A stretch of DNA of 53,546 nucleotides from a virus. The stretch covers positions 1 to 53,546 of IMG/VR virus record IMGVR_UViG_3300045999_001420; one strand, written 5' to 3'. The first letter of the stretch is position 1; each line of letters opens with the position of its first letter. The translations under genes were made by a program, and so were the position numbers. The notes below the pieces were generated by a model. That model was not told where the DNA came from. It made no database searches and saw nothing but the letters and a program-made list of their open reading frames with translations. Positions 4,904-52,901 of this stretch are shown one piece after another.

Positions 4904-6952
4904 ATGGCTGCTGGATTGAGCATATTCCGTGTAGTATCTAACGATGAACTCGCCCGTCAGGAGCGAGAGCAAATCGACCGTGAGCTTCAGGCACGGCAGA
5001 ACAGTTCACTCATGCTTGGCATCGTGGACTATCTGCGTGAGTGCTGGGACGCTGCGAGGATTTCCAAGAAGCCCATCGAAGACATCATGCTCACCGCCAT
5101 GCGTCAGCGCAACGGCGAGTACGAACCGGAGAAGCTTGCCGCCATCAAGCAGCAGGGCGGCTCCGAAGTCTTCATGATGATCACGGAAGTGAAGTGCCGC
5201 GCCGCCGAAAGCTGGCTGCGTGATATCCTGCTGGATACAGGCACGCCCCCGTGGGACATCAGCCCTACGCCAATTCCTGAACTGTCACCTGCGCAGGTAC
5301 AGGAAATCAAGGCGGCGTTTGCCGACATGGTCGCACGCCTGCTTCAGGAAGAACTCCGCGCCATGACGCCATCCGAGATGGCGGAAGCGAAGGAAGCCAT
5401 CTCGCAAGAGTATCGCTTCAAGATGTTGCAGGCCGCGCAGAACCGCGCTGACAAGATGAAGCACAAGATTTCTGACCAGTTCGCAGAGGGCGGCTGGGCT
5501 GAGAGCTTCAACGATTTCATCACCGACCTCGTTACGTATCCCGCAGCCATCGTCAAAGGTCCGGTTGTGCGCCGTCAGCGCACCCTTGGGTGGCAGCAGG
5601 ACGCCTCTGGGCGCACGGTAGCCGTTCCAGTGGACAAGATCGCGCCGGAATACGAGCGCGTTGACCCGTTCTACTTCTACCCGGAGCCGGGGATTACCCG
5701 CATTCAGGACGGGTATTGCTTCCAGCACCACCCCTTGACCCGCACGATGCTGGCCGATCTCATCGGGATGCCCGGTTACGACGATCAGGCCATCCGCAAA
5801 TTGCTCGAAGAGGGCAACGGAAGCTCGTGGATCAACCAAGACATCGAGTTGATCAAGGATGAGGAGGAGCGCAAGTACCACACGGAGATGCGCCCGACCC
5901 AGATTTTCGACGCGCTTGAGTTCTGGGGCAAGATTTCCGGCCAGATGCTCCGCGAGTGGGGCATGTCGGAGGACGAAGTACCCGACGCAGCCCTTGAATA
6001 CGACGCGAATGTGTGGGTTTGCGGCAACCTTGTCCTCAAGGCCGTGCTGAATTACGACCCGCTGGGTGAAAAACCCTATGCGAAGACCTCGTTTATCAAG
6101 TGTCCGGGTGCATTTTGGGGTAAGGGTATCCCTGAGATCATCGAAGACCTCCAGAATGTCTGCAACGCAGCGGCCCGCGCCCTCGTCAACAACATGGGTA
6201 TCTCGTCTGGACCCCAAGTTGAGGTCAATCTGGAGCGTATCCCGGCCAACGAGGACATTACCCAGATTTATCCGTGGAAAATCTGGCAGGTTACCAACGA
6301 TCCGACCGGGTCTAGCGCCCCGGCAGTGCGTTTCACACAGCCGGAAGCCAATGCGACCATGCTTATGGGCGTCTACGAGCGGTTTTCGCGCCTTGCCGAC
6401 GAGCATTCTGGCATCCCGGCCTACCTTTACGGCGATCTGAACGTCCAAGGCGCTGGTCGTACGTCCTCTGGCCTCTCCATGCTCATGGGAAGCGCCGGTA
6501 AGGGCATCCGTCAGGTGGTCATGCACATCGATAGCGATGTGATCAAGCCGATTGTGGAGCGTCAGTACGTCTACAACATGCGTTATGACGACGATGAGAG
6601 CATCAAGGGTGATCTTCAGATCATGCCGCGCGGTGCGATCAACCTCGCCAACCGCGAGACGATGAATGTACGCAGGATCGAGTTCCTCAATGCCACGGCA
6701 AACCCTGCCGACATGGAGATCATGGGTCCTGATGGCCGCGCCGCGCTGCTGCGCGAGGTCGCCAAGAGCTTGCAAATGCCGACAGAAGATATTATACCTT
6801 CGCGCGAGACAGTTGCCCTTATGCAGCGTCCGTCGAAGGGACAGCCGCCGCAAGGTGGCGGCAAACCGACTCCGACACAGCCTGACGGTTCTCCCAAAGG
6901 GGGGCAGCAGGCCAACGTCGTTACAAGTAATGCGTCTGGAGGGGCACCGTGA
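4904..6952 (+). CDS. portal protein
   Basis: Dodecameric portal at the capsid vertex, through which DNA is packaged and ejected and to which the tail adaptors bind. From the ATG at 4904 (MAAGLSIFRVVSNDEL) it has 682 residues, in the range of P22-type portals. The frame is open from 4805, but that segment spans the terminator. Typical features are a helical N-terminal region, a central domain with VDPFYFYPEPG, a conserved KCPGAFWGKGIPEIIEDLQ stem/clip region, and a Pro/Gly/Gln-rich tail. The start has only a weak ribosome site (GAAG). It ends with a GTGA overlap into the next gene. Confidence 0.88.
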   Translation: MAAGLSIFRVVSNDELARQEREQIDRELQARQNSSLMLGIVDYLRECWDAARISKKPIEDIMLTAMRQRNGEYEPEKLAAIKQQGGSEVFMMITEVKCRAAESWLRDILLDTGTPPWDISPTPIPELSPAQVQEIKAAFADMVARLLQEELRAMTPSEMAEAKEAISQEYRFKMLQAAQNRADKMKHKISDQFAEGGWAESFNDFITDLVTYPAAIVKGPVVRRQRTLGWQQDASGRTVAVPVDKIAPEYERVDPFYFYPEPGITRIQDGYCFQHHPLTRTMLADLIGMPGYDDQAIRKLLEEGNGSSWINQDIELIKDEEERKYHTEMRPTQIFDALEFWGKISGQMLREWGMSEDEVPDAALEYDANVWVCGNLVLKAVLNYDPLGEKPYAKTSFIKCPGAFWGKGIPEIIEDLQNVCNAAARALVNNMGISSGPQVEVNLERIPANEDITQIYPWKIWQVTNDPTGSSAPAVRFTQPEANATMLMGVYERFSRLADEHSGIPAYLYGDLNVQGAGRTSSGLSMLMGSAGKGIRQVVMHIDSDVIKPIVERQYVYNMRYDDDESIKGDLQIMPRGAINLANRETMNVRRIEFLNATANPADMEIMGPDGRAALLREVAKSLQMPTEDIIPSRETVALMQRPSKGQPPQGGGKPTPTQPDGSPKGGQQANVVTSNASGGAP

Positions 6953-47781: not shown

Positions 47782-48240
47782 TTATCCTCCAACCTTTCTC
47801 AGTTCGCCATCGTTGTCCCAATAAAACGTATGCACTGGCTCTGCGCAGACAGGGCTATACCTACAGGCAACCTGCGCTGCTTGCGTAGCAGGGGCACCAC
47901 AGGCCAAGGCACCGTAAGCGAAGTCACGGCCACCTCCGAACGCGCACATGGTCATGCCGTGGTCTACTGCATAGGGCGCTGCTTCATACCGCCGCACCCC
48001 CTGCCTATCGATAACGATCAGTTCAGCATCGCGCATCGCCCGAACCATAGGTGGGAAATCTTCTACTTTAGCCCCGGCCAAGTACCACTCGGCCATAGCG
48101 ACAACGTGTGCTGTCTCACCCGCCCCGGTTATAAGCTCGTCGGTCCTTGTCCAGAACTTACGAACCCTAAGCATGGTGGTATCACTGGGTGCGCCGCTGT
48201 CCACTGCGCACGTACTGCCGTCGAATACGATGACAGTCAT
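47782..48240 (-). CDS. HslV/proteasome beta-like Ntn hydrolase
   Basis: 152 residues from the ATG at 48240 (GGAG eight bases upstream). After Met removal the N-terminus would be Thr (MTVIVFDGSTCAVDSG), the nucleophile position of HslV and 20S beta subunits. Asp14 and Lys28 (RVRKFW) fall where the family has Asp17 and Lys33. The segment MTMCAFGGGRDFAYGALACG with ATQAAQVACRYSPVCAEPV matches the Gly-rich loop and following helix of phage and bacterial HslV-like proteins. No HslU-type ATPase is in the window. Substrate and oligomer state unknown. Confidence 0.7.
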   Translation of the reverse strand: MTVIVFDGSTCAVDSGAPSDTTMLRVRKFWTRTDELITGAGETAHVVAMAEWYLAGAKVEDFPPMVRAMRDAELIVIDRQGVRRYEAAPYAVDHGMTMCAFGGGRDFAYGALACGAPATQAAQVACRYSPVCAEPVHTFYWDNDGELRKVGG

Positions 48241-48320
48241 TGATCCATCTCCGAGAACATCAGGTAGACGATGAAGCCCATGAAGCCGATACATCCAGCG
48301 ATGAGGATCACATATTCCAT
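48237..48320 (-). CDS. 27-residue single-span membrane microprotein
   Basis: AAAGGAG precedes two possible ATGs (48326 and 48320; the second has the better nine-base spacing). The peptide begins MEYVILIAGCIGFMGF, spans the membrane once, and ends in an acidic tail (SEMDQ). Its stop overlaps the start of the HslV-like gene by 4 nt, so the two are translationally coupled. Comparable in length, start and tail to the microprotein at 1806-1889. Confidence 0.6.
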   Translation of the reverse strand: MEYVILIAGCIGFMGFIVYLMFSEMDQ

Positions 48321-48322
48321 AG

Positions 48323-48733
48323 TCATATACTCCTTTGGTTAGCCTTAACTGTCAAGGCATTGATACGGATGAGGCGTTCAACCTCGATGACGTTGTAGTG
48401 GTGTTGGTTCTTGATCTCCTCGAACTTGCTGACCGAATGGACGATGGTCGTATGGTCCTTACCAAGGAAGCGACCGATCATTGGGTATGAGATATCAATC
48501 CTATTACGATACACTACCCAGCAGAAGTGGTGGCGCGGTATAGCGACACACCGCGTACGGTTCTTGGATTTTATCTCCTCCTGCGTCACGCCATAGTGAG
48601 AACATATCACTGATAGGCAGCGTTTAAGGGTGAAGATGGCGCGGTTTCTCTGCGCCACCTCTAGTACCTCTTCAAACACTTCTGGATAGTGGTACATTAG
48701 GTAATCGGCCCTGATATATTTATGGTTGTACAT
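48323..48733 (-). CDS. stand-alone DnaA domain IV-like protein
   Basis: 136 residues from the ATG at 48733 (GGAG nine bases upstream). The central part matches the DNA-binding domain IV of DnaA: VICSHYGVTQEEIKSKNRTR, RHHFCWVVYRNRIDISYPMIGRFLG and the signature KDHTTIVHSVSKFEEI. The AAA+ and oligomerisation domains of DnaA are absent; about 40 residues at the N-terminus are different (helical and aromatic). It probably binds DnaA-box-like DNA to start phage replication or block host initiation. Confidence 0.85.
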   Translation of the reverse strand: MYNHKYIRADYLMYHYPEVFEEVLEVAQRNRAIFTLKRCLSVICSHYGVTQEEIKSKNRTRCVAIPRHHFCWVVYRNRIDISYPMIGRFLGKDHTTIVHSVSKFEEIKNQHHYNVIEVERLIRINALTVKANQRSI

Positions 48734-49433
48734 TGTCGAACACTCCGAACCTTTTGCGTAGGGCATCACGGTGGTGGTCGATCACCGCATCGAATTGCCG
48801 TGCCATCTCCTTATAGCTGGCAGACGGACCACCAGCGCGTGTGGTAAGGATGTTGATCAGTGCGTCCGGGTATTCACCGTTGACCATCCATTGTGCAAGT
48901 TCATCAGAGTTGAAGTAACTCGTATAGTCAACGACACCGCGCACCCCCAGCTTGAACCGTGAGAGGGCACCAAGCTTATAATTACGCAGTACAGTAAGCC
49001 ACACCCTGCGGGCGTCCTTGTCGATGAGCGTATGCTTATCGGGTCTGGGGTTGATGCAGATGCCGCTTACCATGGCGAACTTGATGCCGCCGTAGTACTC
49101 AGGAAGGAGTTTGTTCTTGCTATAGTGGTTTGCCCTGCCGATCCGATAGCGTCCGGGTCCGACACGAAACAGAGAAAGTTCCAAGAACCTGTTCATCTTG
49201 TAGACCATGCTAGTAGCGATGGTGCTGTACAGCGTCTCGCTATCCATAACAAACGTGATGGTGTCGTCCGGTGCGATAGTGGCGAAGTGTTTGCCGTTCG
49301 CCACGAGGTGGAAGTCGTTATCCTTCTTGAACATCCGAATGTTCTTGCCGCTTATGGGCTTGCCTAGACTTGGGGTGCGGCATGAAGAGAACACATCAGC
49401 ACAGTACTCGTAGTTGTAGAGGGTGTAACCCAT
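48720..49433 (-). CDS. hypothetical protein, 237 aa
   Basis: Full-length soluble protein with no motif I recognise. Aromatic and basic segments alternate: RTPSLGKPISGKNIRMFKKD, RVGPGRYRIGRANHYSKNK, FAMVSGICINPRPDKHTLI, DEEL-type acidic stretches and a C-terminal helix (KEMARQFDAVIDHHRDALRKRF). The last 14 bp overlap the DnaA domain IV-like gene. An infection-specific host-interaction protein is possible, but no function is proposed. Confidence 0.6.
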   Translation of the reverse strand: MGYTLYNYEYCADVFSSCRTPSLGKPISGKNIRMFKKDNDFHLVANGKHFATIAPDDTITFVMDSETLYSTIATSMVYKMNRFLELSLFRVGPGRYRIGRANHYSKNKLLPEYYGGIKFAMVSGICINPRPDKHTLIDKDARRVWLTVLRNYKLGALSRFKLGVRGVVDYTSYFNSDELAQWMVNGEYPDALINILTTRAGGPSASYKEMARQFDAVIDHHRDALRKRFGVFDNVQP

Positions 49434-50119: not shown

Positions 50120-51232
50120 TTACATCTTGACGACTTCACCCCATGGTGCCTTGTCGCTGTAGTTGCTGACCCACAGGACGGGGTAAGCGGGAGCGGAACC
50201 AAAGTCATCGCAGCACAGGTCGGTCAGAACCACGGTAGCGACAGGATTGATATCATTCTCTTCGAGGTGCTTGAAGATGGGCGAGAACGCAGTGCCGCCA
50301 GTGCCGGGAGACACAAGCTTGCCGATGTTATCGTCGGGCATGAACACCTCGGTCTTGCAGACCTCATGATGGAAGTACACTACGTGCAACTTCTCAGGCG
50401 CACCATCGCAGTGGATAGCACGAAGCTCTGCTGCAAACTCGTTAAGCACACGGTCATCGATAGACCCGGAGCAATCCAGAGCCACAACCATCTCGCCCAG
50501 CTTCTCACCAGTGCGGGAGGGGAGGTACATACCCTGCGTGAAGAACCTGCGATTGGGACGGGCGAAGGTACGCTCGTCGGTCTTGGCCTTCATAACGAAG
50601 CGGCGCAGCACGTCACGCCAATCGACCTTTGGCTGGAGCATATCACCAATAAGCCGCTGGAGGTTCTGCGATAACTTGCCAGCCATCTTCGCTGCCTGTG
50701 CAGCTTGGGCCACGAGGACCTTGGTCTCAGCCATGGCTTGCTCTTGCTCAGCAGCGTTGCCGTCTGCCTCTTGGATATCGTCACCAGTGCCGCCGATAGG
50801 ACCGTCACCGCCGCCGCCCTGATCAGGGAGTATCTTATAGATACCATCAGTGGTGCCGCCGCCAGCATCATAGATCGACTTGTTAAGCAGCCCACCATCG
50901 ATGAACTTGCCGATCTTCTCGTCGGTCAGAAGCTGGTTGATGACGTAGTCACCAGCCATATTCCACTTCTTGTGGTTCCTGCCCTGCAAGCGGTACATAT
51001 GCTCGAACATGGGATGGAAAACCTCGTGGGCCACGAGGAACTTAAGCTGCTCGTCGTCAAGGTCCTCGATGAACTTGGGATTGAACTTCACCCACTTGCC
51101 ATTGGTGCAAGCAGTGCGGACGTTGGGATCGAGGGACATGGGCATGTTAAGAGCAAGCGTCCCAATGAACGGCTGCTCAAGAACCAATGCAGTTCGCGCC
51201 TTGGCAAGTCTACGATTGAGGTCCATAGCCAT
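50120..51232 (-). CDS. VWA-domain protein with HExxH metallopeptidase-like N-terminus (DUF2201-like)
   Basis: 370 residues from the ATG at 51232 (AGAGGAT upstream). The N-terminal domain has H69-E-x-x-H73 (VAHEVFHPMFEH) and WNMAGDYVINQLL with D95, as in DUF2201 putative zinc peptidases. A flexible Gly/Asp/Gln-rich linker (about 135-185) leads to a VWA domain with MIDAS D253-x-S-x-S257 (ALDCSGSIDD) and GTGGTAFSP. In bacteria and other phages this pair of domains works with a MoxR-type AAA ATPase; none is seen in this window. Its substrate is unknown. Confidence 0.83.
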   Translation of the reverse strand: MAMDLNRRLAKARTALVLEQPFIGTLALNMPMSLDPNVRTACTNGKWVKFNPKFIEDLDDEQLKFLVAHEVFHPMFEHMYRLQGRNHKKWNMAGDYVINQLLTDEKIGKFIDGGLLNKSIYDAGGGTTDGIYKILPDQGGGGDGPIGGTGDDIQEADGNAAEQEQAMAETKVLVAQAAQAAKMAGKLSQNLQRLIGDMLQPKVDWRDVLRRFVMKAKTDERTFARPNRRFFTQGMYLPSRTGEKLGEMVVALDCSGSIDDRVLNEFAAELRAIHCDGAPEKLHVVYFHHEVCKTEVFMPDDNIGKLVSPGTGGTAFSPIFKHLEENDINPVATVVLTDLCCDDFGSAPAYPVLWVSNYSDKAPWGEVVKM

Positions 51233-51281
51233 AATATTAGTATCCTCTGTGTTGCAGTTGTCGGGACCGGGACTATCGCAC

Positions 51282-51299
51282 GGCAGCATTGTCGCTGCC
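51282..51299 (-). promoter_or_regulatory. small hairpin upstream of the VWA gene
   Basis: GGCAGC-ATTGTC-GCTGCC, 6-bp stem with a 6-base loop, in the 86-bp gap between leftward genes 51319-51579 and 50120-51232. Weak by itself; perhaps a processing or attenuation site. Confidence 0.3.
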
Positions 51300-51318
51300 A
51301 TGCGACACATCGTCGCGG

Positions 51319-51814: not shown

Positions 51815-52044
51815 CCCCTACCCCAGTGATAGCGCATTATTGTTAGCCTAAACGATTGCCAGCGTTTTTCCTGTTCCTGTGGGGAGAGCTTGCCGTAGTG
51901 CTCGAACACAACTACGTAACTCCCATCTTCCTTCACCGCTCTGCAAGCGCCGAACATAGGTATATCGACACCCAACAGGCGAAGGGATGCGAGGATCACT
52001 TGCACTTGCTCCGTCCCCGGCCACTTATGCGGCAGTTCAATCAC
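51811..52044 (-). CDS. hypothetical protein, 77 aa, paralogue of the previous gene
   Basis: Starts MIELPHKWPGTEQVQVILA and shares the WPG-x-x-x-V helix, central beta strands (GSYVVVFEHYG) and aromatic-basic end with 51566-51814. It is coupled to the DUF3150-like gene upstream by an ATGA overlap. Both products are small and may bind each other or a common partner. Function unknown. Confidence 0.6.
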   Translation of the reverse strand: MIELPHKWPGTEQVQVILASLRLLGVDIPMFGACRAVKEDGSYVVVFEHYGKLSPQEQEKRWQSFRLTIMRYHWGRG

Positions 52045-52901
52045 AGCCCACCCATAAACACCGCCATCTTGTCCATGATAGCCTTGGCCTCATCGATCTT
52101 CTGGCTACGGAACGTATCGTTACCGACGATAGCATCCTTGTTAATGTTAGCAAGCTTCTGCTCGACCTCGTTGCGCATGGTTTCGAGGTTGGGATCGTCG
52201 TTGAAGTTAAGGCGCGGCAGCAGTTCGCACAGGCTTTGGATATGCTCGATGCTGCTCTCGTGGAACCGGGACTTGGGATCGTCTACCTTAACCATCTTCT
52301 CCACAAGGTGCTCGACCCGGTCATAGAGCCGCTGCCATACGTCCTTCATTGCGGAGGCACTGGCGTCCTGCACCCGGCGCTCAACGTCCTGTTGAATACG
52401 GGACAGTTCATCGCTGCCGATGCTTACACGAAAGTCGTTAGACGGAACCGGGAACACGGCCATATCCATCTTGAACTTGGCAGCGATGTCGTTGTCGTTG
52501 GGATAGTCCTCCTCGCGGTAGAGTGAACCAAGGAACCGCTTGGCGTCTGCCTTGAGCAACGCATAGTTGCTGGTGAACAGGTTAACCAGCGTATCCCACT
52601 CGCTCTTCTCGCGGCGGAACTCAGTGATGAAGTTAAGGTAGTTGGCAGACGGCAGCATCTGCGTACCCTCGATGCCCCACGGCAACGTGTTCTCATAGTA
52701 CTTGTTGCGGATATAACCTGCCTTCTGGTGGACGTTGGACAGGTAGTCGTTCATGGGCAGGAGGGATTTGTTGTAGCGACCAACGGAAGCGTTGACACCA
52801 TGGCTGTGGGCAACCTCTTGGGTTGCCTTCTTGTCGTACTTTCGCGCGGTCCACTGGGAGATGTTAAGCTGCACGAGGAGAGCGCGGTCAGAAAGGTTCA
52901 T
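52041..52901 (-). CDS. DUF3150-like protein
   Basis: 286 residues. Pattern matches the DUF3150 group of phage and plasmid proteins: MNLSDRALLVQLNISQWTARKYDKKAT, GRYNKSLLP near the start, a central FITEFRREKSEWDTLVNLF, and long C-terminal helices (SRIQQDVERRVQDASASAMKDVWQRLYDRVEHLVEKM). Family members are frequently encoded next to a MoxR ATPase and a VWA protein; here the VWA partner lies about 0.8 kb downstream and MoxR is absent. Biochemical role unknown. Confidence 0.75.
   Translation of the reverse strand: MNLSDRALLVQLNISQWTARKYDKKATQEVAHSHGVNASVGRYNKSLLPMNDYLSNVHQKAGYIRNKYYENTLPWGIEGTQMLPSANYLNFITEFRREKSEWDTLVNLFTSNYALLKADAKRFLGSLYREEDYPNDNDIAAKFKMDMAVFPVPSNDFRVSIGSDELSRIQQDVERRVQDASASAMKDVWQRLYDRVEHLVEKMVKVDDPKSRFHESSIEHIQSLCELLPRLNFNDDPNLETMRNEVEQKLANINKDAIVGNDTFRSQKIDEAKAIMDKMAVFMGGL

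Follow-up and report, generated by a model that had tools for sequence, protein, structure and literature searches.

The minus-strand gene at 47782-48240 of the window, which is the whole of a linear virus record of 53,546 bases, encodes an Ntn hydrolase of the HslV/20S-beta type that belongs to the described PPH family of phages (PMC8665760), so that the enzyme itself is not new. What we found no description of is a feature of the branch of the family to which it belongs: as judged from alignments, the catalytic triad is retained there, whereas the second triad of the proteasome, Ser129/Asp166/Ser169, is gone, its residues having been rebuilt. We consider it likely, with a probability of about 60%, that the product is an active threonine hydrolase of the PPH family that operates without an unfoldase of its own, and that the membrane microprotein encoded directly upstream is a separate protein. 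The features concerned are compiled in Table 1.

Table 1. Features around the PPH gene, in positions of the window; residue numbers are those of the window protein unless the proteasome is named
Feature	Position	Strand	Details
PPH-type Ntn hydrolase gene, 152 aa	47782..48240	(-)	ATG 48240-48238, stop 47784-47782; phrog_1040 E 2.9e-17; AF2 fold
Thr2 codon (mature Thr1 nucleophile)	48235..48237	(-)	T 55, S 3 of 58 in the branch; 15 T, 1 S of 16 other PPH
Asp14 codon (proteasome Asp17)	48199..48201	(-)	D in 58/58 of the branch, 16/16 other PPH
Lys28 codon (proteasome Lys33)	48157..48159	(-)	K in 58/58 of the branch, 15/16 other PPH
Gly103 codon (proteasome Ser129 position, GxG block)	47932..47934	(-)	Glu/Asp in 40/58 branch relatives
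Ser129 codon of the window protein (proteasome Asp166 position)	47854..47856	(-)	Ser in 58/58 of the branch; Asp in 15/16 other PPH
Cys132 codon (proteasome Ser169 position)	47845..47847	(-)	Cys in 57/58 of the branch; Thr/Ser in 15/16 other PPH
Microprotein with a single span, 27 aa (29 aa with the upstream ATG 48326)	48237..48320	(-)	4-nt overlap with the PPH gene
AGGAG, Shine-Dalgarno-like site for the microprotein	48330..48334	(-)	3 nt to the first ATG, 9 nt to the second
DnaA C-terminal (HTH) domain protein, stand-alone	48323..48769	(-)	Bac_DnaA_C E 2.2e-17; upstream of PPH and microprotein
Lineage gene with neither Pfam nor PHROG match	48720..49433	(-)	directly or closely upstream of PPH in many relatives

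The window contains genes typical of a tailed phage (terminase, portal/head-tail adaptor, major head and tail proteins) and, on the minus strand, a replication block with genes for DNA polymerase, helicase, exonuclease, dCMP deaminase and primase/helicase, within which the PPH gene is located. The stand-alone DnaA-like protein encoded upstream consists of the DNA-binding C-terminal domain and lacks the ATPase domain. The lineage gene beyond it is a member of a family seen in about 110 fetched loci (copies included), often directly 5' of PPH; it was rejected as a partner of the enzyme because it also occurs in 25 polymerase loci with no detected PPH gene, some of these loci being short. Further upstream, the gene at 50120-51310(-) encodes a DUF2201 metallopeptidase-like and VWA protein (Pfam 1.7e-44 and 1.3e-23), the PHROG of which, phrog_1314, is labelled HNH endonuclease, probably a misannotation. 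In relatives, a MoxR/dynein-like AAA+ gene lies near the DUF2201/vWA gene, an arrangement like that of RavA-ViaA. The gene at 52041-52901(-) encodes a protein of 286 aa that is 60-83% conserved in relatives and has a weak, sub-threshold match to MitMem_reg (E 1.1e-4).

The initial annotation had proposed an HslV/proteasome-like peptidase with the coordinates given above, and profile and structure comparisons bear this out. The profile phrog_1040, "peptidase HslV family", matches the protein as well as all 43 members of alignment A4; this match is the only one in the whole record, and alpha partners are absent. When a profile of 17 phage homologues was compared with the PDB, it retrieved HslV (5.4e-13), the betaproteobacterial proteasome homolog BPH (7.6e-12) and 20S beta5 (4.1e-9). 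An AlphaFold2 model built with 42 relatives in the alignment has a pLDDT of 93.6 and a pTM of 0.88, and among known structures it most resembles 20S beta chains (Z about 16, 143-149 residues, 2.5-2.9 A). The predicted fold is thus that of an Ntn hydrolase, and VIA-align pairs residue 2 of the model with residue 1 of the mature 20S beta subunit, placing Thr2 over Thr1. Viral proteins matching the model include Caulobacter phage proteins annotated as proteasome subunit beta and as Ntn hydrolase. The lone window sequence gave nothing useful with Pfam, only chance matches with phmmer against the PDB, no match in viral_contigs, and a useless single-sequence AlphaFold2 model with a pLDDT of 35.

The PPH family has been described as proteasome-like phage proteins of about 140 aa that have no propeptide, lack helix H2 and have no known function (PMC8665760), and the occurrence of phage HslV without HslU has also been remarked on in print (PMC7823757). 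The earlier view that no such system had been described therefore fails for the enzyme. In the window protein, Thr follows directly upon the initiator Met, leaving no propeptide; the helices of the model span residues 43-54, 64-69, 105-113 and 118-128, and the short helix 64-69 may represent H2. Our assignment to PPH was made via phrog_1040 and phage homologues annotated as peptidase HslV family. A query with the relative from Bradyrhizobium phage BDU-MI-1 yielded at least 493 phage records, many of them already annotated as HslV family peptidase. JSS1_004, which surfaced in a text search, proved to be an unrelated kinase, and in the literature we found no measured activity for any PPH.

Relatives of the PPH protein were reached via a search with the polymerase and then via alignment A3, which contains the closest relatives; a 17-member alignment (A1) was too diverse for scanning. 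The A3-based search identified 144 loci in viral contigs, of which 80 were kept. Many loci are near-identical copies, so that distinct sequences rather than loci were counted, and 60 distinct proteins were compared. All but two form one clade with the window protein, with a modest ultrafast bootstrap of 70 and a stem of 1.2 substitutions per site; the two others, L111 and L194, are PPH proteins of the ordinary type outside this 58-member branch. The nucleophile, Asp and Lys that the initial annotation had singled out are indeed conserved among homologues, with Thr or Ser after the Met, Asp and Lys in every branch member (Table 1); the count for Thr2 is somewhat too high, since relatives were searched with two patterns, one of which started with MT. 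Gly41, which corresponds to the oxyanion Gly47 in the PPH criteria, is likewise kept in all 58, and the complete set of Thr/Ser-Asp-Lys and oxyanion Gly is also found in nearly all of the 16 other phage PPH proteins. Between the window and L019, a phage with a polymerase 84% identical to that of the window, pN/pS of the PPH gene is 0.39.

The proposed correspondence to the HslV/20S template holds for Thr2, Asp14, Lys28 and the block GGGRDFAYGALACG (residues 102-115 of the 152), all of which are in place, but not for the canonical GSG within this block, which is GGG in the window protein, so that the position of proteasome Ser129 and HslV Ser124 is lost. Ordinary PPH proteins have Ser at this position in 15 of 16 cases, and the other two positions of the second triad are also replaced in the branch (Table 1). 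The mapping of PPH residues onto the 20S proteasome rests on sequence alignments. The distance from the GxG block to the segment with the Asp166 and Ser169 positions is equal in the branch and in ordinary PPH for most sequences, and therefore the replaced residues do not reflect an alignment slip within PPH. The term second triad is that of Huber and colleagues, for a set of residues that determines the protonation state of the Thr1 amine; mutation of Asp166 cripples the 20S proteasome, D166A blocking both autolysis and catalysis and D166N causing strong impairment (PMC4792962). This counts against activity of the branch enzymes, although the autolysis defect is irrelevant for PPH, which has no propeptide to remove. 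With altered surroundings of the Thr1 amine, turnover could be slower, the pH optimum different or transfer preferred to hydrolysis, and in these respects the branch enzymes would be expected to differ from HslV. We found no description of the replacement, including in the 2021 PPH paper.

A 27-residue single-span peptide overlapping the PPH gene by 4 nt had also been noted, and the open reading frame is present: it ends at 48237, its TGA shares the ATGA with the PPH start, and its product is hydrophobic. The ATG at 48320 is a better choice of start than that at 48326, because it has the 9-nt spacing to the AGGAG motif and because a Met is also found at the second position in L019. The latter encodes a similar microprotein at the same place, in the same order and with the same 4-nt overlap before PPH; the two microproteins are 42% identical and have GCxGFxxFIVxL in common. 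Their pN/pS is 0.49, a value drawn from only 26 codons with synonymous changes near saturation. The microprotein looks like a real gene. Single-span microproteins of 31-33 aa recur in the lineage (L021:4963-5058(+) and 5471-5566(+), L041, L042, L063), overlap the following gene by 4 nt and in several cases end in FKVGxDxDE or similar.

It could be imagined that the microprotein anchors or regulates the peptidase at the membrane, as the initial annotation had suggested. Conservation of the pair in L019, where the gene that follows is a different one, would fit with this idea, as would the sister phage L021, in which both genes are missing from the corresponding locus, a single informative comparison. 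Synteny argues against it: in the fetched loci, to which the microprotein counts apply because such genes are too short for a search of the collection, the microprotein precedes PPH in just 2 of the 58 distinct branch members, and the remaining 56 have another upstream open reading frame or none that could be found. The overlap was rejected as evidence for a pairing, as 44 of the 60 distinct PPH loci (the 58 of the branch plus L111 and L194) have a 4-nt overlap with varied upstream open reading frames. A gene starting with ATG-ACN always carries a TGA in the overlapping frame, where an open reading frame must end, and thus the overlap of microprotein and PPH largely follows from the ATG-ACN start. 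Furthermore, 15 different one-span microproteins overlap a downstream gene by 4 nt in loci of the lineage, before genes for dCMP-deaminase-like, polymerase, HTH and other proteins, for example MTLEYGLALCVFTVIVVFCFSSFKVGGDADE of L021 before an HTH gene. We therefore regard a functional pair as quite improbable; the microprotein is probably an operon neighbour and not a general partner of PPH.

Alternatively, the protein might supply the peptidase of a two-part, ATP-dependent machine, its AAA+ partner being either an unfoldase of the host, such as HslU, or the MoxR/dynein-like AAA+ protein of the relatives. This would fit with the dependence of HslV, a homologue of PPH, on HslU, and with a weakly matching AAA+ protein of about 330-380 aa that is encoded in 12 of 13 PPH-bearing relatives. 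The same match is present, however, in 11 of 13 relatives with no PPH in the fetched loci, which makes this ATPase unlikely to be a dedicated partner and led us to rank it low. In L198 its gene, which exceeds the AAA_5 cut-off only just, lies directly upstream of the gene for the 286-aa protein and near the DUF2201/vWA gene, not by PPH. Members of the HslU/ClpX class (AAA_2, ClpB_D2-small) were not found among the 13 PPH-bearing relatives. The absence of an HslU-type unfoldase, already remarked on in the initial annotation, is true of the window in searches with AAA_2, AAA_5 and AAA; the record may be incomplete, and as it ends about 600 bp beyond 52041-52901, with a gene there that differs from the AAA+ gene of L198, this absence concerns the record and not necessarily the genome. 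A two-component protease appears very doubtful. Loss of proteolysis with retention of the fold for binding would be another way to account for the replacement of all three residues of the second triad, including the Gly of the window at the proteasome 129 position. The invariance of the first triad and the oxyanion Gly, unexpected for a dead fold, makes an inactive enzyme unlikely, and the substituting Ser and Cys are themselves conserved with hardly an exception, as would be expected of a functional site, so that a pseudoenzyme seems rather improbable. A possible, albeit unlikely, variant is that the rebuilt surroundings of the Thr1 amine signify a threonine enzyme of the Ntn type whose reaction has shifted away from processive proteolysis, for instance towards acyl transfer or ligation, or towards cutting a single fixed target.

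For an active PPH-type hydrolase, the following mode of action is proposed. Met1 would be removed by the methionine aminopeptidase of the host, exposing Thr2 as the N-terminal nucleophile, which would be activated by Lys28 and Asp14, with Gly41 contributing the oxyanion hole. The enzyme, probably an oligomer like HslV and BPH, would cleave or transfer acyl groups, with a peptide or a few molecules as substrates. It probably works without a dedicated phage unfoldase, and so would handle peptides, unfolded stretches or one particular partner and not carry out bulk degradation. The microprotein would be a separate small membrane protein tied to PPH only by operon position and translational coupling.

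The branch, with its intact catalytic triad but replaced second triad, represents a natural experiment on the role of Ser129/Asp166/Ser169, and it offers small, propeptide-free proteins that can be purified for testing this role. At the same time, the tempting but weak idea of a peptidase-microprotein pair has been removed.

Among known systems, the PPH proteins of phrog_1040 are closest, as they share with the window protein the short single domain, the occurrence in tailed phages, the lack of a propeptide and the Thr/Ser-Asp-Lys triad with its Gly. The branch differs from ordinary PPH at three positions, where Asp166 is replaced by Ser, Ser/Thr169 by Cys and Ser129 usually by Glu or Asp (by Gly in the window), and Pfam Proteasome misses most of its sequences when they are searched singly. 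The window protein shares with HslV (ClpQ) the Ntn fold, a Thr that removal of Met would expose, and the Asp and Lys of the triad, but the window protein is about 20-30 residues shorter than most solved HslV chains, has no hslU neighbour and carries Gly at the Ser124 position; the link to HslV, at E 5e-13, is made only via the profile of phage homologues. BPH, a Group I relative in Fuchs 2021, is longer and cellular. The 20S beta subunits have the same fold, with Thr2 superimposed on Thr1, but are only 16-19% identical to the window protein, which has neither a propeptide nor alpha partners and in which Gly103, Ser129 and Cys132 take the place of the second triad.
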